Assembly (NCBI GenBank): GCA_034401795.1 | Contig: CM067367.1 | Coordinates: 49,144,485-49,208,484 of the forward strand | Length of the DNA stretch: 64,000 bases | Origin: Chaetoderma sp. LZ-2023a | Lineage: Eukaryota; Mollusca; Caudofoveata; Chaetodermatida; Chaetodermatidae | Reading direction: 5' to 3' | Shown here: positions 5,357 through 60,483 of the stretch, one piece after another | Position numbering within the stretch: position 1 is the first letter of the stretch | Layout of the letters: the number at the start of each line of letters is the position of its first letter | Made by a program: the position numbers and the translations under genes | Notes under the pieces: generated by a model | The model's database searches: none | Seen by the model: only the letters and a program-made list of their open reading frames with translations | What the model was told of the DNA's origin: nothing

Positions 5357-5360
5357 TAAA
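5357..5360. other. Target-site duplication, left copy (TAAA)
   Basis: GTGC-TAAA precedes the element and TAAA-GTTAG follows it at 10965-10968. The empty site in the sister unit near 13628 reads GTGCTAAAGTTAG with one TAAA. That shows a 4-bp duplication directly. Confidence 0.9.
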
Positions 5361-5376
5361 GGTACATTCTCAGATA
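5361..5376 (+). repeat. Left terminal inverted repeat
   Basis: GGTACATTCTCAGATA; a perfect complement of 10949-10964. Its last seven bases, TCAGATA, are also the core of the internal subterminal motif. Confidence 0.93.
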
Positions 5377-5560
5377 AAATGTGCAATTATGGTAGAAAAC
5401 ATGGTGAAGAATAATCACAGACTGTGTATGTTAACTCTAATTTTTATTAAACTTTAGCGTATATACTATATGCAACACATAATGGGTCATCTTTAAAAGT
5501 AATGAATATTTCAGAAATTGCGCGTAAAACCAAGACATAAAAACACAATTCTAAAATCTA

Positions 5561-6301
5561 TCAGATACGCTACCAATTATTCATAGAGTTTTAATTGTGC
5601 ATCTCGAACACAATGCATAGAATCCCGCAATTGTACCAATTCTGAACAAATATTCAGTCATTCAACGGACTGATAGATTGGTTGAATCAGTAACCATTGA
5701 TGTTAAATGCTTAGCAAACAAACTTCAAAATATGACAGTAAATAAAGGCATTGATTGATGCATTGTTATTTATGATCTACGATGAGTCCAACACTACATA
5801 CAACATGAGATGAATTGAACTTGGTGGTCTTTTATCACTGGTGCTAAATATGGCATATTATTTTCCGGTTAACTGCCCTTGACATTATATATCTCATTAT
5901 GGTAGATTAATATGGTACATAGCAATAACTATGTCATAGGTAACGTATCTGACATCATAATACTTAGAAAAAATTACATTATCTATGATTGTTTTGATAA
6001 CATGGAACAGCAAATGCTATGGTTTTTCGCATTCGTTCAAAGATTTGGCAATATAGCAACATTACCCAGCCACTGAGAGCGTTGTTGACATTGGTTTGAG
6101 CAGATACCTTGAAATATGTGGATAGATGGAGCTAAATTTTGTTAATATAATGGTGATAAATTGTGATCCCAATCACGAAAATATAGGAAAGGTAATCATA
6201 AATCATAAAAAATCAACTTAGCAACATGATTGTAAACCTGGTTGAATAGTTTGTTTCATAGCTATGCTCCGTATACAGTTTGTGGTAGGTAACGTATCTG
6301 A
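5561..6301. promoter_or_regulatory. Left subterminal motif set (14-bp, probable transposase binding)
   Basis: Consensus GGTARCGTATCTGA. Copies: 5561-5574 (minus orientation, TCAGATACGCTACC), 5939-5952 (plus, GGTAACGTATCTGA) and 6288-6301 (plus). All lie between the left end and the transposase stop codon. Repeated subterminal sites near transposon ends usually bind the transposase; that function here is inferred. Confidence 0.75.
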
Positions 6302-6387
6302 TGAAAAGGAAAGATCAAACAGCAAATTTGCAAAAAACATGAACACTAACATTTATGAACTTGTGCCAACATGAGCCAACATGAACA

Positions 6388-8964
6388 CTAACATTTATGA
6401 ACGTGTGCCAACTTCTCAATCTTATTGAATGTTTCATCTGGTATTTGATAGAATCTAGCTGATCTACCTATTGCGACTGGGGTTTCTATATTCACTAAAA
6501 TATCCTTGAAAGGAATCCACAATTGATCATCCCCATGTGGCCATTTGAATCGTGGATTACCGACAGATTTTGTCGCGTTCATGAATGTAATGAGGGCATC
6601 ATCGTCACTCACGTCAACCTCCAAGACCTTGCCCAAATACCACTTGCCAAAGTAGATAGCTGCTACATACGTATCAACCAGAGGCGCTATGTTGTGAACA
6701 ACCGCGTCAGTGATAATGGAATCATTCTTATTCATGTCACATGTCTCTAGATTGCCTACATTTGGTACAATGGTTGTGTCATTCAAGTTTATGTGATCCG
6801 GCTCACTACAAGTGTCTGTATGCAATTTTAGTGGTTGCACGATCCAACCGCTGCAACGATTCACACCATGGATGCAGTCATCGCAATAGCAAGAAACTTC
6901 ACGTGTCAAGAGATGTCTGTCATCGACTGGGATAATTGCATGGGCTTTCATTGTTCCTGGAATGGGTTTGCAATCTATAGTTTGCAGTATTACCGCTGAT
7001 TCATCATAATCGTCTTGAGAGTATCTAACATATGTGATTTCTTTCTCATGTGTAGATGCCCAAGAAAAGAAATCATCTGCATCCTGGATAATGGTTTTGC
7101 CCTGCTTGACTGCATCTGCTGCCTGTCTCTTAGCAGTGCCACCGATCCCGTCACAGGCACCCTTCCCGTGGCCACATTCAAAGTAGTTCCAGCAAGCTTT
7201 TACCCCAAACAGTGAATCATGATGGCATACTGTACTGAAGATAAATCTGTTTCTATACTGAGAAGACGGGCTGTCAGTCCAGTAGTGGATCATTTGCAAA
7301 TCAGTGACATGTAATTTCAAGAGAGGTACTAGTTTTTTTATGATGGCAACAACTGACTTTGCGTTGTGTTCTCTGAGATCAGAAACAAACACAAAACTCT
7401 TATGCAACAACTTATTATCAGGCCCGATGAAGTAAGCAATAACTGGATGCAATGTAACACTGGTGCTATTCCAATATGCGCTTTGGATCTCCTCTGCGGT
7501 TTGGCAAGTGAAATTCTCTGAGAAGTCCATTTGAACAACAACTTCTGTTGCCGCTAGTTTCTTTTTCAATTCACACATTGCTTTATACTGCTGTTTGACT
7601 CGGCCCACGTGTGCGAGAAATGCTCTATAATCACCTTCCATCAATGTTATGAATTCATCCCTGGTTTTGGTTACTTTCACAATTCGTGTTTTCTTCACGT
7701 CGTTCACTTCAATCCTCTGCCATACTTCGTATTGGACATGACTTTGCCCAATGTTTGATAGTAGTCCACTCATTTCAGCAACGGTTACACATTTACTAAC
7801 AGTTTCTGGATTTGGACTAATGTCAATAGCAAGAGAACGCAAACAGGTAAGTTTCAAGGCAAAGTTTTGATGACATGTACATAGACAGATATTTCTGGAC
7901 AGTAACGACGTGAGTTTGATGTAAGCAGGTCTCAGTTTACAGAATTGGGCGAATGAAAGTTTACTCTCGGGATTGTCCGCTTGAAAGCGTCCGTACAGAT
8001 TACCAAGATAGTCATTGAGAATACGTGTCTGTATCTTCTCTTTGTCAATCTTAACCGCATCTCTCTTTCCAGGCATACAACGACTAACATCATCTCGTTC
8101 GAAAAACGCAATCACAGTACCTTGAAGAAATGTCCTTGCTGCTACCTGACGTGTGCGTCGGTCGTGATGTTTTACTAATGAACACCGGCGTATACCAGTA
8201 TCTTTATGAAGATAATTTATAAGCCTGTATTTGCGTATGATACCACCAGCAACTAATCGTCTCATCTTTCGGCGCTCATTCTGGGATTTTGTAGAATCAT
8301 GTGTATCCTTTATTTGGGATGTTACTGCATTTGCGAATATAAGTTTTTGTCTAATCGAGGCAGGTACATCAGAGCGACGAATACCAGCATGTGCGAGTTC
8401 AGTGTCAGTCTTACTTCTAGGTGTCATTTCTGAAACTGGGGTCACATACGATGTATCACTCTTTCTACTTAGGCGAGTATTGAGTCGTTCATTACGTTTT
8501 TGAAATTTTTTGACACGTTTTTGCAATTTCGAATTTTGAGTACTTAGTTCCTTTATTGCTTTATTTGCTTGCCTAAGAGCCTTTGAGCGTCTTTTCTTTC
8601 TAGAGGAACTATGTTGCGGAAATGCAAGTTTCACGACAAGTGGAGTAGATGTAGTCCTAGAGCCAGTGGACGTACTTGGCTGATCGGGTTCAACTGAACT
8701 GGAGACCTCTTGTGACTGAACTTCGTTGCTCACATCGTTCGGCTGCTCGGACAATTGTTCAGTAGCACGGTTAAATTTAGCCCTGTACTTTTGGCTATGC
8801 AATCTACTTTTCCCTTGTCTCGTTTTTAACTTTTTCTTAGATAGTTTAGATGCAGGGATGCGGTATCCAAATTGCCGTTTTCGCTCTCTCTCCAAAAACG
8901 CTGGGTCATTTAATTTCTTCCGTTCTCTGTAAGCTTTCGAGATCTCAGCACGAGTTTTACCCAT
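6388..8964 (-). CDS. Transposase, DDD type, 858 aa
   Basis: The single intact frame runs from ATG at 8964 to TAG at 6388-6390. The N-terminus is very basic (residues 1-65, KTRAEISKAYRERKK...), followed by a Ser/Thr/Gln-rich linker (~66-110) and a probable coiled coil (~118-165). The likely catalytic core holds MDFSENF (D480), TDSPSSQ (D564) and GKGACDGIGG (D605) within a 130-residue block, spaced as an RNase-H-like DDD/DDE core would be. Cysteine pairs lie at ~360-364 (CLCTC) and ~692-704 (CYCDDC...C). A C-terminal segment (~770-845; VAAIYFGKWYLGKV ... FKWP ... LWIPFKDIL) looks like a small SH3/Tudor-like module common in related invertebrate proteins. It should cut and join the element ends and bind the subterminal motifs. 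The superfamily name is not certain; Sola is the best fit, with KDZ-like as an alternative. Confidence 0.85.
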   Translation of the reverse strand: MGKTRAEISKAYRERKKLNDPAFLERERKRQFGYRIPASKLSKKKLKTRQGKSRLHSQKYRAKFNRATEQLSEQPNDVSNEVQSQEVSSSVEPDQPSTSTGSRTTSTPLVVKLAFPQHSSSRKKRRSKALRQANKAIKELSTQNSKLQKRVKKFQKRNERLNTRLSRKSDTSYVTPVSEMTPRSKTDTELAHAGIRRSDVPASIRQKLIFANAVTSQIKDTHDSTKSQNERRKMRRLVAGGIIRKYRLINYLHKDTGIRRCSLVKHHDRRTRQVAARTFLQGTVIAFFERDDVSRCMPGKRDAVKIDKEKIQTRILNDYLGNLYGRFQADNPESKLSFAQFCKLRPAYIKLTSLLSRNICLCTCHQNFALKLTCLRSLAIDISPNPETVSKCVTVAEMSGLLSNIGQSHVQYEVWQRIEVNDVKKTRIVKVTKTRDEFITLMEGDYRAFLAHVGRVKQQYKAMCELKKKLAATEVVVQMDFSENFTCQTAEEIQSAYWNSTSVTLHPVIAYFIGPDNKLLHKSFVFVSDLREHNAKSVVAIIKKLVPLLKLHVTDLQMIHYWTDSPSSQYRNRFIFSTVCHHDSLFGVKACWNYFECGHGKGACDGIGGTAKRQAADAVKQGKTIIQDADDFFSWASTHEKEITYVRYSQDDYDESAVILQTIDCKPIPGTMKAHAIIPVDDRHLLTREVSCYCDDCIHGVNRCSGWIVQPLKLHTDTCSEPDHINLNDTTIVPNVGNLETCDMNKNDSIITDAVVHNIAPLVDTYVAAIYFGKWYLGKVLEVDVSDDDALITFMNATKSVGNPRFKWPHGDDQLWIPFKDILVNIETPVAIGRSARFYQIPDETFNKIEKLAHVHKC

Positions 8965-8997
8965 TTTCTAGGAAAGGAAAGAAAAACAGACCACAAT

Positions 8998-8999
<2 letters not shown>

Positions 9000-9054
<55 letters not shown>

Positions 9055-9076
9055 GAGCAGTAGCAGCCGTAGCAGC

Positions 9077-9126
<50 letters not shown>

Positions 9127-9182
9127 CAGTAGCAGCAGTAGTAGTAGTAGCAGTAGCAGCAGCAGCAGTAGTAGTAGTACAT

Positions 9183-9213
<31 letters not shown>

Positions 9214-9236
9214 GAGCAGTAGCAGCAGCAGCAGCC

Positions 9237-9273
<37 letters not shown>

Positions 9274-9301
9274 CAGTAGCAGCAGCAGAAGCAGCAGCAG
9301 C

Positions 9302-9336
<35 letters not shown>

Positions 9337-9364
9337 CAGTAGCAGCAGCAGAAGCAGCAGCAGC

Positions 9365-9396
<32 letters not shown>

Positions 9397-9416
9397 GAGC
9401 AGTAGCAACAGCAGCT

Positions 9417-9453
<37 letters not shown>

Positions 9454-9475
9454 CAGCAGCAGTGGTAGTAGTAGT

Positions 9476-9510
<35 letters not shown>

Positions 9511-9679
9511 TAGTAGCCTTAGTAGCAGCAGCAGCCTTAGCAGCAGCTTTCGCAGAAGCAGTCTTTATAGCAGGTAGCCTTAGCAACAGCAGCGTTAGCA
9601 GCAGCAGCTTTAAGTAGTGGCAATGTCCAGCAGCCTTAGCAACAGCAGCGACCTTAGCAGCAGCAGCAGCAGCACAGCG
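9000..9679. repeat. AGT/AGC trinucleotide tract, ~680 bp
   Basis: Nearly uninterrupted AGT and AGC triplets alternate in blocks, ending in AGCAGC-rich sequence. The tract starts about 35 bases upstream of the transposase start codon, so it occupies the promoter or 5' leader of that gene. Long open frames here in several phases are by-products of the repeat and are not genes. Confidence 0.95.
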
Positions 9680-9806
9680 AAAATGATCAGTATTCCCAAA
9701 GATAATGAAGTAATATAGATGCAGATATGACAAAATAAAAGTGGGATACACATTTGTGGCTCAGGACACATATATAATGATGCACATTGCAACGAAATAG
9801 CGAGCG

Positions 9807-10565
9807 TCAGATACGTTACCAATTTGGTCAGATACGTTACCACATATTGACCTTGCTTATTTGACACGTGCAGTAATGATGGCTTATAGTTTATGAAACA
9901 ATATTAATCTGATCTAATACTAGATATAAAATACTGTTTGCCACGTGATAGTACGGTGATATGTATGACGCATGCAAGTGTATTGTAGAATGTGTTGATG
10001 CAACTTACCACAGACAGACGCCGTTTAGAGAGTAAATATCTTCAAATGTTGTACTTTTGCAACTTTTTCGTTTTAGATAAACTTGCATGTCATCAATACA
10101 CAATAAGCAATGACGTATTTAACAATTTTCCCTCACGTCACCGCACAGACCATCAAATTAAGGCCAGCAGTATTCAGTCGGTAGCGTATCTGATATCACG
10201 TATCTGATGTGCATAAAGTGTCTTATCCATTTACTTTGAGAAATAACTGATACTGTGAATTGTTTTATGTCCAATAAGTCATTGTATACTTGTAGTTTAA
10301 GATCACATAGTTCATGGGTTTGAATGATGTCAGATTCTGGCTAGCAGCAGTAGAATATTGGTAGCGCATCTGATGAGATGTGAACGTAACAAATACGTGT
10401 CAACTGCCCATACTTTTTCTGACATTTCCCTGGCCTAAGATGAAGTAAATGTGATACTGGCGCAACAAAATACGGTTATTGTTCACACACTTAGCCAGTT
10501 ATAGTGTTGATTTTAACAAAGGGTAGGCATGTTTTTCCTCTAAAACAACATGGTAGCGTATCTGA
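9807..10565. promoter_or_regulatory. Right subterminal motif set
   Basis: Copies of GGTARCGTATCTGA: 9807-9820 and 9828-9841 (both minus orientation, TCAGATACGTTACC, 21 bases apart), then plus-orientation copies at 10180-10193, 10360-10373 (CGCATCTGA variant) and 10552-10565, plus a partial ACGTATCTGATG at 10197-10208. The plus copies are about 180-190 bases apart. They lie between the AGT tract and the right end, upstream of the transposase gene, so binding there could also affect its transcription (inference). Confidence 0.75.
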
Positions 10566-10948
10566 TGTTAATATGGCGACATGTGTTTCAAGACTACTTA
10601 GACAATTTTGATGGTTGAATCTACCAATAATGTGTTATATATCGGATTGGGGATCCAATTTCGGAAGTAAATATGATGAGCAAGCTTTGAAACCTGCAAG
10701 AATTTAACAACCTAGTATATTTTTGTATGACACCTGTTGCTGGCGACATGGATAAATGGTTAACATTAGACCTTTTAGCATTGATTTTTATATATTATTT
10801 GGTTTTCTATTCCTATCATAACCCACCAAACCTACGAATTTAATAAAAAATAGCTATTATTTCATTTTTGGTCGACATGTTCTAGTCAGAAGTGCTGTAA
10901 TATATTTGAAATAGGACAGAGACAGTGGAAATAAGGGGTTGACCAGGC

Positions 10949-10964
10949 TATCTGAGAATGTACC
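10949..10964 (-). repeat. Right terminal inverted repeat
   Basis: TATCTGAGAATGTACC, perfectly complementary to the left end, followed by the TAAA duplication at 10965-10968. Confidence 0.93.
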
Positions 10965-11213
10965 TAAAGTTAGTAAATGCAATAATAGGCCAAAAGTCAG
11001 TCTGCATCGAAATATAGTGAAATTCTGTAAAATCGAGTACGTTTGAATAGATGTGTTAGAATTTCAATTAATGTGCTGTCTGTCACGTCTATGTGATTTC
11101 TTTACTGTGTCAATCAGGGATGTGTGTTGGACACATATTAACATAATTCAGGTCTTCATTACAACCGAAATTAAACCATCAAAAATTTCTCCAGTATCAC
11201 TCGTTCGTTTCAT

Positions 11214-13217: not shown

Positions 13218-13425
13218 AAGGAGTTACAAAAACTCTAAATAATGTTCCTATATATTATAGTGTCTTATGGTACATTATAGTGCATCATTACCAGTCTTGT
13301 ATATTCAGTTTTATTATGAAACAAAAGGTCACCCAATTCCGAGACAAAATACAGTGGAAAATAACTTCAATATATGCTATAACATACCATTTGTTCCATT
13401 TTTCATATTCTAAACGATTTCTTCT

Positions 13426-13589
13426 GGCTCCATAGCCCAGTGGTTACAGCACTCCCAGCAGGCACATGCCATTGTTTAAACCTTGAATCCACGTTGAAAT
13501 GACATTATTTCAATGTTGAAACAATGTCATGTTCCTGCTGAGCCGGTCTCGTAAACCAGGGGTCGTAAGTTCGATCCTCCCTGGGGGCC
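13426..13589 (+). pseudogene. Split tRNA-Thr(CGT) gene (copy F)
   Basis: Parts 13426-13453 and 13545-13589 flank a 91-bp insert (13454-13544). Loop CTCGTAA. The spacer after it (around 13628) is the empty site matching the transposon insertion after copy D. Confidence 0.8.
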
Positions 13590-13879
13590 CGCTGTGTAGT
13601 AAACTATACATATATAAAAGTGTCTATGTGCTAAAGTTAGTAAATGCAATAATAGGCCAAAAAGTCAGTCTGCATCGAAATATAGTGAAATTCTGTAAAA
13701 TCGAGTACGTTTGAATAGATGTTAGAATTTCAATTAATGTGCTGTCTGTCATGTCTATGTGATTTCTTTACTGTGTCAATCAGGGATGTGTGTTGGACAC
13801 ATATTAACATAATTCAGGTCTTCATTACAACCGAAATTAAAGCATCAAAAATTTCTCCAGTATCACTCATTCTTTTCAT

Positions 13880-13952
13880 GCCTCCATAGCTCAGTGGTTA
13901 GAGCACTGGTCTTGTAAACCAGGGCTCGGGAGTTCGATCCTCCATGGGGGCT
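13880..13952 (+). tRNA. tRNA-Thr (anticodon TGT)
   Basis: Cloverleaf as at 1968 with intact D stem GCTC/GAGC and anticodon arm. Two changes in the T-arm region (GGGCTCGGGAG and CTCCA) leave one T-stem mismatch. Probably a slightly decayed gene. Confidence 0.8.
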
Positions 13953-14372
13953 GCTGCAATAATAAGTTCGTGTAATCAAGAATATACATGTCGCCTGTCG
14001 CAGACTAAATGCCTGTAGTGAAAGAAATGTATGTTAAGATCTCAGATAGGTATAAATGTATCCATATCCTAAAAAATCCAAAGGTTCATTAGCAAAGCCG
14101 TGATAAATTATATTTGTGCTTCAATCTCAAAATTGATAATTGTATTATAATCGGTCGCTGTTTGTTGACCCATGGCCTGTCAATAACTAAGATGTTTTAC
14201 ATGGATTCGAGTTTTGGATTTCACTGTGATCAGTTGTGTTTTCTCAGAGCTCTCTAATGTCCTGTATTTTCGGGAATATAGTATGAAGTTTTTTGTGAAT
14301 TTATGTTTGTGTTACAACTGTAAATAAGTTCTTGTTTGTGTACATTAATTGTCTGCCCTCGCCCTAGCCAGT

Positions 14373-15861
14373 ATGGCTCAGGGTAGGGATCGTAGGACTG
14401 GCCCAGCTGGGCTTTTAAATGATAGAAGATACGCTATGGAATGTACTGTGGAAGTAAATTTAGTAGACAATAGAAATGTGCGTGCAAGTGAACTAATTGA
14501 TTCTTTGGAAGACTTATGTGGAAAGGACAGCATTTATGCTTGTGTTAAGAAAGGTGGCAATGGATATGAAGTAACTGTTTCTAATAAGGACACTGCGATG
14601 ATGATCAATGATGGGATTACCATAAGAGGTGAGCACTACTCATGTATGATGATTATTAATGACTCTGTTGTTGTATCATTTATGGACATGCCAGCTTATT
14701 TAGAAGATGACATTATTATTAAGAAATTAACAGATCTGGAATAAAATAGAGTAGGAATAAAATCTGACTTGATCCGTAGAGTGTACCGTGGTACTAATAT
14801 AGCAGATGGGACTCGGTATGTTAAATGTCAGTTTCCTGAAAATTTGAAAGCTCTCCCATATAGCATGCAGTTTCAAACAGCAGAGGGCCTCAGATAATTT
14901 TGTGTCATCCATAATAACCAGGTGAAAGTCTGCTGGAAATGTCTGTCCGACAACCACTTAATTAGAGACTGTCCTAATTTTGTGTGCTATCGTTGTAATG
15001 GCCGTGGCCATACAAAGAGGAACTGCCGTGCCATTCTGTGTGATGAATGTGGAATGTTTCAATGCATATGCAGGGTTTATGATGACTTGCCTGTTGCTGC
15101 ACGTGGAGGTAGGGTCGTGAATGCTGAAGATGATGAACATTCACAAAATGAGATTGATACCTGTAATGAAGATGGTGACCGTGACGTCGATATGGAGATT
15201 GGAGCAGCTGGAGTGATGATTGATGTGACTGATGTAATTGATGTGATGGTTCATGAGGGGGATGAGTGCGTGTTAAGTGAGAATGATAGTAATGACATGT
15301 TTGATAAAATCTCAAGCAGTGCAGGTGATGAGTACACGTCAAATGAAGATGTTATTGACAATGCTGCCAATAATAAAGACAGAAAGAAGAAGAGAAAACG
15401 AAAGAAACACAATTGTAAAGCCTGCAAAGCGTCTAGTTGAGGAGCTTAACAAAGGTGAGCAATGTTCACAAACTATAGAAGTTTGTCAATCAAATAACAA
15501 TGAACCTGTGAGTGAACTGATTGGTAAGCAGGTGAGCGATATTGATATTACTACCGGCGGCGGCGGTACGCTTGTGAACACTAATTATGTTGTCGGCGTG
15601 GCTCAAGTGGTAACTGCGCGAATTGTGGATCCACAGGTCGAAGGTTCGCTTCCAAATCAGGGTGAAAATAAAACTAATGTTTCTGGTCAGATTTGTCAGT
15701 CTACGTCGGAAAATAAATTAGATGTGGATGATATGTTTTCAGAAGATATCACCCCGGTGCCTAAAGACATCAGTTCAGTTCCACCAAGTGACATAGTTTC
15801 TAGGCAATTTATTTCCCCATTTAATAAGGGCAAAGGTCGTGGAAAACCTCTGCACACATAG
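14373..15861 (+). pseudogene. LINE ORF1, zinc-knuckle protein, broken
   Basis: The start is set at ATG 14373 (MAQGRDRR) because it lines up with the start of the ORF1 at 972. The frame is broken by TAA at 14742-14744 and TAA at 14895-14897, then shifts by one base near 15400 to continue to TAG at 15859. Between breaks it codes an N-terminal domain like the sister ORF1, two CCHC knuckles (about 14931-15030; CWKCLSDNHLIRDC and CYRCNGRGHTKRNC), a further Cys cluster, an acidic segment and a lysine-rich patch near 15380-15430. The role would be RNA binding in the retrotransposon particle. Confidence 0.85.
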
Positions 15862-15869
15862 GCTTAATT

Positions 15870-16663
15870 ATGGATATCACATTTATTATATTTTCCTTTT
15901 TATTAATCATGTTAAAGATAGCATCTTTAAACACTAATGGTTTGAGAAATTATGACAAATGTGATAACATATTTGGCTTTTTACAGGTTTGGAATTATGA
16001 TGTTATTTTATTGCAAGAAACATTTTGGGATGCTAATTTGGCTTTGTATTTTACTGGGAAATGGGATGGTGACATTTATTTTAGTAATTTTGATAATAAT
16101 AGAAGGGGAGTTGCAATACATGTTAAAAATGATATCAAGCACAAATTTAAATTTGTTACTAAATATACTGAGGGAAGGTTTGTTCATATTAATTATAAAA
16201 CTGGTGATGAAATTGTAAATATCTTTAACATTTATTCACCCAATGAAACAAGAGAAAGAAGACAATTTTTTAATTTTGTTAATAATAAAATTGCTGAATT
16301 CGAAAATATAATTCTGGGTGGTGATTTTAACTTGGCTTTGACAGCTTTAGATAGAAGACCACAAGCTAACTTTGTACGGGACTGTTCACATGACATGCTC
16401 TATGAGCTTGTGACTAAACACCAGTTAGCTGATGTTTGGCGTGACAGATATCCTTTGAGAATTGTCTTTTCAAGAAGTGCTATTGTCCTAGGTGAATGTT
16501 CCCAAAGCCGCCTAGACTATTTTTTAATCAGCAAACAATTATCTGCTAATGTAATTTATACTGGCTATAAATACACAACTCTGAGTGACCACGCTTGGGT
16601 AGAACTATCAATAGACTTTAATAAAGCTGAGCGTGGGCCAGGGTTGTGGATTTTCAATGGCAC
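15870..16663 (+). pseudogene. LINE ORF2, apurinic-like endonuclease domain only
   Basis: Starts eight bases after the ORF1 stop. Endonuclease/exonuclease/phosphatase signatures are in order: SLNTNGLRN (N21), LLQETFW (E50), GGDFN (150-154), RLDYFL (~214) and LSDHAWV (D240, H241), so the nicking domain that starts target-primed reverse transcription looks complete. The frame passes GPGLWIFN, which normally leads to the reverse transcriptase, and then enters the T-run and foreign DNA, stopping at 16742. No reverse transcriptase follows within the window. Confidence 0.88.
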
Positions 16664-17104
16664 TTTTTTTTTCCTTGGAAATCAGCACGTACCTTATGAA
16701 TCTGGCGCAAAAGCACCAGAAACAAAACCCGCAGCCATATAGGTGGTGCCTGGAAAAGCCCCAGACTAGCGACCAAAAAGGGTTTTCAAAAAGTTACACA
16801 CCTAATGGCTGACAACATTACCTTATCACCTATTGCATCACACCTTTAAAACCATTATCCTAAAGGTCAGGTCTCACGACCATCCGCATATGCAATAAGA
16901 GAAATTATTATTTCTTCTAAAATTATTAATTGATTCCCTAATGCACCAGTCTCCCTAAACACTTTAACACAAGTTATCAGTTATCCAGAAAAACCTAATT
17001 AAAACCTCTCACCATTATCCCAATGGTATCCATTCAACCATACAACATAAGCTACCCAGTCACTCAGCTACACTCAGCCACTCTCAGCCCACCTATATTA
17101 CTGT

Positions 17105-31112: not shown

Positions 31113-33267
31113 CTCAAAAATATTCTGTTGGTCTGCAACTGGACTGAAATCTGAAGACTGAACTGTACTCATATCTTGTAGCGCGTGCATTACATCTACT
31201 AGGTGCTTGATAGTCGCAGCTCGTCTCTCCCAAGGGGCATTGGCTGTAGTGGTTCAAGTCCACTGGGTGTCAGAAAACAAAGCATGTTACACAAGACATT
31301 CTCTCATGTCTCTTTCTCATCTCTCCTCTCTAGTTGTAATGTAAAATGAAAATGACAGCCACGCCACAATGTACACATCAATTTTTCAATTGATACATTT
31401 TGTACAAATAAATGAGCCATACCGAGGGATGAAATGCTAAATTAGTTATGGAAAAAGTCTGGAATTTCTGCAGAAGGCATACAATATGAACATCATTCTC
31501 GTGAGGAAAGCAGTCATATTTAAATGTTGTGTTTTACTGATGTCTCATTATGCTATGATGAGTAAGTAAGTAGACTTATTGTCATCATTGGCATTGTGTG
31601 AATGAATTGTCTGTTATATTTCAGGTGTTACATGAGAGAAAATTACCAGCAGTGAGAGAACTCTTGCACGTTTCCAGCACATCAAAGGCTGAAGATCCAC
31701 CAAGTGAAACCAGGATGTTTCTATTGACCATAATTATTTTAGTGATTTAAGTCCCCGTAAGTTAAAGCGCAAATATAATGACATTCTCGATGACAAGGAA
31801 AAATCCTTAAAGCACTATCAAAATACATTAGCGACATCCAGAAAGCGAATTAAGAGGCAAAAAACACTATTAATATTATGAAGGAGGTTTTCACAGAACT
31901 TAATGAGAAAAATCTTCTAAATGAAAATGGATTGGTAGTTTTAGAAAATTATTTTTCTAGTGTAAGCCTTGATTTGTTTAAGAAACAGCGTCTGGCTGAC
32001 AAAGGTCACTATAGCGAAACACTGAAATCATTTGCCTTAACGTTGAACTTTTATTCACCCAAAGCATACAGCTATGTACGTGATGCATTGAAATTCTGCC
32101 TTCCACACCCAATCACTCTTAGAACATGGTATTCGACGGTTGACGGTTCACCGGGTTTTACAGAGGAGGCATTCAATGCAATTAAACATCAGGCTAGTTC
32201 TGCAAGTATGCCACTTTCGTGTGCCCTCGTCTTTGATGAAATGGCCCTTAAGCAAGTGGTAGAGTTGGATGGGTAAAACTTTGTTGGTTATTTTGATCTT
32301 GGTATTGGTGCCATCGTAGATTCAGTTCCTGTGCCCAAAGAGGCGCTTGTATTTATGGTTGTAGCTATAAATAGCTCCTGGAAAATTCCAATCGCATATT
32401 TCCTTTGATGGTATGTATGCCATTGATAAGGCTAATCTTGTCAAACAGGTGATCTTGAAAGTTCATGATTGCGGGCTTTCTATTGTATCTTTGACTTTTG
32501 ATGGATCAACTGTTAACATGTCCATGGCCAATCATCTAGATGCAGTGCTGAGATCAGCCAGCCCTATTTTGCCAATCCGGTCGATCCCACCGCAAAGGTA
32601 TTTGTATTTGTAGATCCCTGCCACATGATTAAGCTTATCAGAAATTCATTTGCCTATAATGGTATTTTAGTAATCATGGATGGTAAGCAAGTTCAGCGGT
32701 CTTACGTTAAGAAATTGTATGATCTGCAAACAAGTGAAGGTTTCCGGCTGGCAGACCGATTGCGAAGGAATCACATCGAATGGTATCAGCAAAAGATGAA
32801 AGTGAAGCTTGCAGTGCAAGCTTTAAGTTCATCTGTATCTAAGGCTTTAGATGTTGTGGAGAATGTCTTAGAATTGCCCGAGTTCATTGTATGTGGACCT
32901 ACTGCTGAGTTCTGGTCTTTCTTTGATCGTCTGTTTGACATGCTAAATTCAAGAAATGCTTTTGCTAAAGGGTATAAAGCTGTCCTACGTGAATCTAAGA
33001 GTCCGTTCTGGGTATCCTTTCTCCACAATTCCCTTCAGTAGCTCTGTTGTCTTCAATTAAATGGGGGTACCAATGATTACTGAATGAAATCGTACACCAA
33101 TTGGGTTTGTAGCAGCATGTATGGCTCTTCCTGTTATACGTGATGGTTTTTCAGTTTGATACAGGGTAGATGTGGTTGGAACAACAACCCATCATCTCAG
33201 CAGTTTCGTGCAGCCTATCAGCGTACGTAGCAATTTTACCCCGCAGGATGATATAGGTATATTATTA

Positions 33268-57939: not shown

Positions 57940-59069
57940 CGTAATAATAAATAATAATACAGCATTTGTATAGCGCCATTCATCAATTTGACTAATTTTC
58001 AAAGGTGCTTCGGTATATATGTGTTTTTAGTTTTTCTTTAAATTTCTCCCTAGAGCTTATCGTTTTAATATCCAGTGGTAGGGTATTCCAAAGTTTTGGC
58101 GCGGCGATGCTGAAAGCTCTGTCTCCACATGACTTCAGATTGGATCGTGGAATGTTTAGCAGGTGTTGATCTGTAGAGCGAAGAGCACGGTGCGGAGGGT
58201 GGGGCATAATGAGATCCTTCATGTATTCTGGAGCTTCATCGTGCATGCATTTCCATGTTAGGAGGATAAGTTTGAAGTCAATTCGTTGACGGACAGGTAG
58301 CCAGTGGAGGTGTTTCAGTATAGGGGTTATCTGATCACGTTTCTTGATCTGCATCAGGACATGGGGTGCAGAATTTTGAACCTGTTGTAACTTGTTCAGT
58401 GACTTTGCCGTTATACCATATAGCAGGCAGTTACCATTATCCAGACGTGATGTTATAAATGCATGGATAAGCGTTTCTGTTGTTTGATGTGTTAAAACAG
58501 TTCTTATTGAATTAATGTTTCTTAGATGGTAATATGCCGCTTTGCAAATAGATGTTACCTGCGCATCCAAATCCATAAACTGACCAAATATTACACCTAC
58601 ATTTCTGGCTGATGGATTTGCCATAATCAGACTGTTTACTAGTTGGACTTCGGTAGTATGAACCTTACTACGTTGATGTTTTGTCGATATCACGAGGAAC
58701 TCGGTTTTGTCTGGGTTTAGTTTAAGCTTATTAAATGTCATCCACTGACTAATGTCTGCAACACAATTCCGTACATGTTCAAGAGCCATGGTCTCGTTTG
58801 TATGCACGTTGGGTTGGAATGTCGGGTAAAGCTGCGTATCATCCGCATACATGTGGATCTGGAGATTATGTTGTTTCGCAATGTTTACAATAGGTGCCGA
58901 GTACACAGTGAAAAACTTTAGACCGAGAACTGAGCCTTGCGGTACACCGTACTCTAACAGGACACTAGCGCTGGAGGAGTTGGAGATAGTCACAGCTTGG
59001 TGTCTGTTTGTGAGATAGGACCTTACCCATGATAAGGCCGTTCCAGTTATGCCTATGCTTTTGTTCAAT
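57940..59069 (-). mobile_element. CR1-like LINE, 3' half (minus orientation)
   Basis: The minus-strand frame 59068-57992 (358 codons) starts NKSIGITGTALSWVRSYL and has GVPQGSVLG (41-49), HMYADDTQLY (YADD 74-77), LNPDKTEFLV, the thumb, and a C-terminus ending EKLKTHIYRSTFEN. The 3' end beyond the stop reads GCGCCATTCATC on the plus strand and finishes in an ATAATAATAAATAATAAT-type tail at about 57941, typical of CR1-group tails. One change is notable: the residue after VLG is Leu-Lys instead of the usual Pro-aromatic. The 5' half is on the other strand (59127-60388). Confidence 0.88.
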
Positions 59070-59126
59070 CGCGTGATTCACGTGAGACACGATTCACTTC
59101 AATGATATCATCGATAGTGCTAATCT
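59070..59126. repeat. 57-bp inverted repeat, left copy
   Basis: CGCGTGATTCACGTGAGACA ... GTGCTAATCT; complementary to 60427-60483 with a single mismatch. It lies exactly at the junction between the two opposed LINE halves. Confidence 0.93.
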
Positions 59127-60388
59127 AAACCACACACGTGCAAGGTCATACGCTTGATTTAATTATTGGTAGACCATCCGATGACATGATAAGTAATGTC
59201 CGTGTAGAATCATTCATTACGGACCATGCCGCAGTACACGGCACTCTCAATATTGTCAGACCACGATCGCCTAGAGAGACAATTACGTTTCGGAAGCCAA
59301 AACAATAAATCATAGTGACCTCGCAACGGATTTGAAAGCAAGTGAGTTGTTTTCGCATCCACAAACAACATTAATCCCATCTATCGAACAATACAATTCT
59401 GTGCTGGGTCAACTCCTCAACAAACATGCTCCCGAAAAGACGCGCACCATTGCTGCACGACAACAAGCACCTTGGTATAATTCAAACCTCACATCGGCCA
59501 AAAAGACGTGTAGACAATATGAGAGAAAATGGAGGAGAACTCGTTCGATGACTGATAGGTTGGCTTTTCAGTCTCGGAGAACATGTGTCGTAAATCTGTT
59601 CCATAAAGCAAACTCAGACTATTATTCAAATCTGATATCAGCTACAGCAGATCAGAAAGAACTATTTAAGGTGATAGATGAGCTTCTTCATAGGAAAGCA
59701 AACCCCAAACTGCCGAAACATAGTGACACTGCTACCTTAGCGAACACATTCAACACATTCTTCTCTGAGAAGATTGCCACCATTCGCAAAAACCTTGACA
59801 GCGTACCCCCTGTTGCAGTGCACGACGAAGAACTATACCATCCACCGGATCTAGAAATTTTCCGTCCAACAACCGAGGAGGAAATCTCTAAAATCATTAT
59901 GTCCTCGCCAAGCAAGACTTGTTCGCTCGATCCGATACCAACTACAATAGTTAAGCACCATCTTCAAATCCTTGCACCGATAATCACAAAAATCGTGAAT
60001 GTGTCCTTAGCTAATGGAGTTTTTCCATCTCTCATGAAAAATGCCTTAGTGACCCCGTTGCTCAAAAAGTCATCATTGGACTTGGATACCCTTAATAATT
60101 ACCGACCAGTTTCCAACCTTTCATTCTTGTCTAAGCTTGTAGAAAAGGTCGTGGCAGATCGTATATCTAAGCATATGCAGCAGTACCAACTGGCTGAAAA
60201 ATTTCAGTCAGCCTATAGAGAGCACCATGGAACAGAGACCACCCTGGTCAGGGTCCAGAATGACATTCTGCGTGCATTAGACAATCACAATGCAGTGTTC
60301 CTGGTTTTACTCGATCTTTCTGCCGCGTTCGATATGATCGATCATGAAATTTTAATTGAACAAAAGCATAGGCATAACTGGAACGGCC
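59127..60388 (+). mobile_element. CR1-like LINE, 5' half (plus orientation)
   Basis: It begins with the end of the endonuclease domain (THVQGHTLDLIIG, FITDHAAVHG at 59141-59240). After a one-base shift near 59305 it runs open from about 59330: APWYNSNL, HSDTATLANTFNTFFSEKI, SSPSKTCSLDPIPTTIVK, NNYRPVSNLSFLSKLVEKV and LVLLDLSAAFDMIDHEILIE (first catalytic Asp of the reverse transcriptase). It stops being LINE at 60388, exactly 34 bases into sequence that is also the start of the 3' half. Frame beyond that (to 60459) is not LINE. Together the two halves would make one reverse transcriptase if on one strand. Confidence 0.88.
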
Positions 60389-60426
60389 TATTTCATCACT
60401 TAATGTTTTCATTAACTAACTGTTGT

Positions 60427-60483
60427 AGATTGGCACTATCGATGATATCATTGAAGTGAATCGTGTCTCACGTGAATCACGCG
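60427..60483. repeat. 57-bp inverted repeat, right copy
   Basis: AGATTGGCACTATCGATGAT ... GTGAATCACGCG; partner of 59070-59126. A 38-bp spacer separates it from the LINE end at 60388. Confidence 0.93.

Follow-up and report, generated by a model that had tools for sequence, protein, structure and literature searches.

An apparently intact DNA transposon with a readable empty site in a tRNA-Thr array of the mollusc Chaetoderma

What kind of mobile DNA has interrupted a tRNA-Thr array in the caudofoveate mollusc Chaetoderma sp. LZ-2023a, and how far can its relationships be read from one insertion? The stretch of DNA analyzed here (the window) comprises 64,000 nucleotides of contig CM067367.1 (assembly GCA_034401795.1, positions 49,144,485 to 49,208,484, forward strand). 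In the spacer after a tRNA-like unit of the array it contains an element of 5604 bp (5361 to 10964, if a 4-bp duplication is assumed) that encloses a transposase gene. We consider it probable that this is an autonomous DNA transposon of the cut-and-paste type, apparently intact, with a transposase of an animal-wide family, most likely in or next to the Sola superfamily, with Sola2 as the best fit. It provides a concrete, apparently complete copy, together with a readable empty site, for a large and poorly named family of animal transposases.

A preliminary description of the locus had claimed perfect inverted ends of 16 bp, and these match exactly (GGTACATTCTCAGATA at 5361 to 5376 on the plus strand and its counterpart at 10949 to 10964 on the minus strand); identity stops there, and the sequences farther in diverge. 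TAAA flanks the element on the left (5357 to 5360) and right (10965 to 10968) and is found at the paralogous empty site in a sister array unit (13632 to 13635; GTGCTAAAGTTAG). With the element excised, the joined flanks are 97.6% identical across 743 bp to the sister unit at 13223 to 13963, and the spacing, said earlier to be restored by removal of 5604 plus 4 bases, is indeed 454 bp in both units (13880 − 13426, and 11214 − 5152 − 5608). The uninterrupted GTGCTAAAGTTAG junction is present in the sister unit (13633) and in three more array units (3505, 4417, and 12691), while array units 2982 and 12168 have a junction variant with ATAAAG. Perfect 16-bp inverted repeats with equal flanking 4-mers form 54 pairs in the window, the element's own included, with 49 of the remainder among array repeat units and 4 elsewhere. 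The case for a transposon is accordingly not built on the inverted ends alone; the argument is that the insertion is clean in a unit that is collinear apart from it, that a transposase gene lies inside, and that tip-like repeats occur internally.

The gene (6388 to 8964, minus strand) is a single open frame of 858 codons, as previously claimed, which opens with ATG and has an in-frame stop immediately upstream. Its codons 461 to 644 (7033 to 7584, minus strand) are predicted to form an RNase H-like catalytic core, for which D480 (7525 to 7527), D564 (7273 to 7275), and D605 (7150 to 7152; all codons on the minus strand) are proposed as the first, second, and third catalytic residues. D564 and D605 are invariant in an alignment of 46 rows, and D480 is conserved in 45 of them, with N in one; D605 begins the helix that follows core strand five, and E596, beside this proposed triad, is equally invariant. 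Taken together, the fold prediction and residue conservation point to a DDD transposase with an RNase H fold. Pfam searches with the full transposase gave nothing beyond the cut-off, and a PDB sequence search with it gave no relative; no Pfam family had a match in two or more of the 29 family members scanned (best E, 0.00057). A match to a phage transactivator/viroplasmin protein, the best in a viral library (E, 1e-4), was taken to reflect the common RNase H fold.

A protein search with the transposase retrieved 86 relatives at E 0.001 out of 7993 candidates scored, with named sources including Lytechinus, Holothuria, Haliotis, Mytilus, Pinctada, Mya, Branchiostoma, Epinephelus, beetles, a planthopper, and a spider. 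As the nearest are just 50 to 55% identical to it, there is no recent kin among the relatives found. When the core region was searched starting from the arthropods, 441 of 670 candidates were found. In the resulting lists (86 rows by sequence, 88 by profile, and the best 120 of 441 by core region), named family members in the sequence and core-region lists are mostly "uncharacterized" or "hypothetical", and no dictyostelid name usable as a Sola2 yardstick occurs among these mostly nameless rows. A quick tree of 52 rows, the window's transposase and 51 hand-picked from the 219 proteins of the three lists, shows a deep split into 23 and 29 rows, with 13 of its 49 inner branches open. The 23-row clade (clade A) holds the window's transposase, and its named members are from marine invertebrates, amphioxus, and two Sedimenticola bins; the 29-row clade (clade B) contains arthropods, molluscs, a starfish, a fish, and a Wolbachia bin. 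The sequences from the Sedimenticola bins (P0008 and P0027) and the Wolbachia bin (P0104) are animal-type transposase genes that probably reached bacterial metagenome bins through host contamination. No relative with flanking DNA was found in the bacterial or archaeal genomes, viral contigs, plasmids, or phages searched, and the 71 stretches of viral contigs with the 15-base tip, a single match each, were taken as chance. Further precomputed domains in P0050, P0116, P0119, and P0126 were taken as neighbouring or fused genes.

Two features go beyond the preliminary description, namely, subterminal repeats and a Tudor-like domain in the transposase. The repeat GGTARCGTATCTGA has eight copies with at most one mismatch (two were permitted in the search), all inside the element and none in the gene, against a chance expectation of 0.41 across the whole window and a maximum of 3 in 100 shuffles. 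They lie at 5561 to 5574 (minus strand, GGTAGCGTATCTGA), 5939 to 5952 (plus, GGTAACGTATCTGA), 6288 to 6301 (plus), 9807 to 9820 (minus), 9828 to 9841 (minus), 10180 to 10193 (plus), 10360 to 10373 (plus, the one with a mismatch), and 10552 to 10565 (plus). Both tips and the subterminal repeats have in common a TATCTGA core (TCAGATA on the other strand), which occurs 10 times in the noncoding part of the element, 0 times in the gene, and 13 times in the remaining 58.4 kb. Repeat arrays so placed at the ends of transposons often serve as binding sites for the transposase.

To which superfamily might the element belong? Sola elements are described (here and below, in passages of the cited papers) as having a DDD transposase, 4-bp duplications, ends of 11 to 1124 bp, and lengths of mostly 2 to 9 kb (PMC10741241), and Sola2 as having AT-rich 4-bp duplications and an 888-amino-acid transposase (PMC3627910); in a curated library for molluscs, Sola2 has 14 families and Sola1 has 8 (PMC10294476). 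The 16-bp ends and 5604 bp lie within these ranges, and the DDD-type transposase, the 5.6-kb size, the short inverted ends, and a possible AT-rich 4-bp duplication make up a likeness by description. Since it rests on published descriptions and not on sequence comparison, the element is filed as Sola-like and not as Sola, and membership of Sola is compatible with the data. The preliminary claim of a DDD transposon of a Sola-like or undescribed lineage is thus borne out in its first part by the predicted fold, the near-invariant acidic residues, and the family distribution, with the Sola-like part compatible with the published description.

The target-site duplication can be read in more than one length. 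In the sister unit, the target is GTG-CTAAAG-TTAG. A C and a G frame TAAA at the empty site (C-TAAA-G), and the element itself opens with GG and closes with CC, so that the boundary can slide. Three end-symmetric readings restore the sister unit exactly: AA (2 bp, element 5360 to 10965, starting AGGTAC..), TAAA (4 bp, with the 16-bp ends), and CTAAAG (6 bp, element 5362 to 10963, with 15-bp ends), so that the ends measure 15 to 17 bp overall. TAAA does stand on both sides as first described, but a duplication of uniquely 4 bp does not hold, since AA and CTAAAG fit equally. A single insertion is insufficient to choose among 2, 4, and 6 bp, and the 4-bp mark of Sola is ambiguous here, which matters because duplication length is a main mark of transposon superfamilies. 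It is a tenable, if less favored, possibility that the element represents a DDD/E lineage outside Sola, of its own or in another named superfamily, with a 6-bp or 2-bp duplication, ends of GTAC.. or AGGTAC.., and the same cut-and-paste chemistry. The two other duplication readings, the lack of a Pfam family common to the members scanned, and the deep two-clade split all suit such a lineage; against it, the Sola description fits on each point that could be tested, and a family this widespread is unlikely to have been missed by Repbase.

Whether the copy can still move is a separate matter. It is possibly a young and active element, on the sole basis of the intact ends and gene of one copy. Somewhat unlikely, in our view, is a recent insertion that is already immobile, with its gene open yet the element static or reliant on other copies. 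One copy was examined, and a TAG/AGC microsatellite of 550 bp within the element (8998 to 9547), which lies 33 bp ahead of the start codon of the transposase gene, may disturb expression; the identical 16-bp tips, the intact 858-codon frame, and the family residue at every proposed catalytic position speak against immobility. It is highly improbable that the apparent transposon is a domesticated host gene or an assembly join: nothing specific favors either reading; the exact empty site, perfect tips, and tip-like subterminal repeats argue against both; and the empty site was the ground for setting the domesticated gene aside.

For the autonomous Sola-like transposon favored here, a mechanism can be hypothesized. 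Basic helices and a coiled coil in the N-terminal part of the transposase may bind the TCAGATA core of the tips and subterminal repeats and so pair both ends; the predicted RNase H-like core would use D480, D564, and D605 to cut the ends and join them to staggered target DNA; and gap repair would then leave the short AT-rich duplication (TAAA on both sides; 2, 4, or 6 bp). Codons 758 to 828 (6481 to 6693, minus strand) are predicted by structure, with weak sequence support, to form a C-terminal Tudor/SH3-like barrel, and the modeled domain has the features of a Tudor-type barrel. It probably aids target choice or holding, either through DNA binding like integrase C-terminal domains or through reading of methylated histone tails. 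Its likeness to the Tudor domains of PHF1, PHF19, and MTF2 has a Foldseek E of just 0.015, with sequence searches merely suggestive, and, unlike those domains, the putative barrel sits in a transposase. Y771, Y776, and F794 align with W41, Y47, and F65 of PHF1, residues of an aromatic cage for methylated lysine, with no clear match at the fourth cage position. Among the clade A rows that span these sites, an aromatic residue is present in 18/18, 18/18, and 17/18, respectively, and the region is absent in 5 of the 23 rows; none of the 50 matches listed for the clade B model is to a Tudor domain. It could be speculated, as a rather doubtful proposal, that the window's clade consists of DNA transposons with a working Tudor reader that steers insertion to H3K36me3-like marked chromatin, a counterpart of chromodomain retrotransposons. 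If the Tudor-like tail does read histone marks, it would give a DNA transposase a built-in chromatin address, with a bearing on how cut-and-paste elements avoid harm to the host and possible use in targeted gene delivery.

The surroundings of the element contain further repeats. Six tRNA-Thr-like units (1381, which is cut short, 3298, 4210, 5152, 12484, and 13426) share an insert, about 91 bp long and containing TTGAAAT repeats (CCCAGCAGG...CCTGCTGAGC), that separates GCACT from GGTCT in the tRNA, and the units at 1968, 11214, and 13880 are without it. Non-LTR (long terminal repeat) retrotransposon-like open reading frames lie at 14349 to 16742, with an endonuclease domain at 15870 to 16742 and, by eye, a zinc-knuckle-like protein; the piece at 14349 to 14744 has no Pfam match. 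Pieces of a P-element-like transposase, with Tnp_P_element, TNP-like RNase H, and GTP-binding domains, are found at 31878 to 33041, and two reverse-transcriptase pieces in opposite orientation at 57992 to 60459, the stretch from 59040 to 60479 containing short inverted repeats.

Comparison with known systems places these predictions in context. PiggyBac, Kolobok, and Sola3 duplicate TTAA, which the target CTAAAG does not offer. Mariner elements give 2-bp TA duplications (PMC10045372), and the Mos1 mariner transposase is 8 to 9% identical to the one described here. Dada elements insert at multicopy small RNA genes, a setting similar to the tRNA-Thr array, and the 6-bp CTAAAG reading, alongside those of 2 and 4 bp, would agree with their 6- to 7-bp duplications; however, Dada inserts inside the RNA gene, and the families examined have no terminal inverted repeats (PMC3706591), and the spacer insertion and perfect 16-bp ends were the grounds for setting it aside. 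Retroviral integrases (ASV, HIV, and STLV) are 5 to 14% identical to the transposase and belong to retroviruses, whereas the element is a DNA transposon; they have an HHCC domain where the transposase has a long N-terminal helical part, and their D,D-35-E signature (PMC6784120) contrasts with a third acidic residue, D605, that follows after 40 residues. The Sola passages make no mention of a Tudor-like domain such as this transposase may have, and no DNA transposon with a Tudor domain was found in the literature searched, most subscription papers lying outside that search. The nearest parallel on record there is Gypsy-10_Ec32 of Ectocarpus, a Gypsy retrotransposon that has a Tudor domain at its C terminus and is, to its authors' knowledge, the first transposable element so described (PMC12477816); it is an LTR retrotransposon of a brown alga, whereas the element described here is a DNA transposon of an animal.
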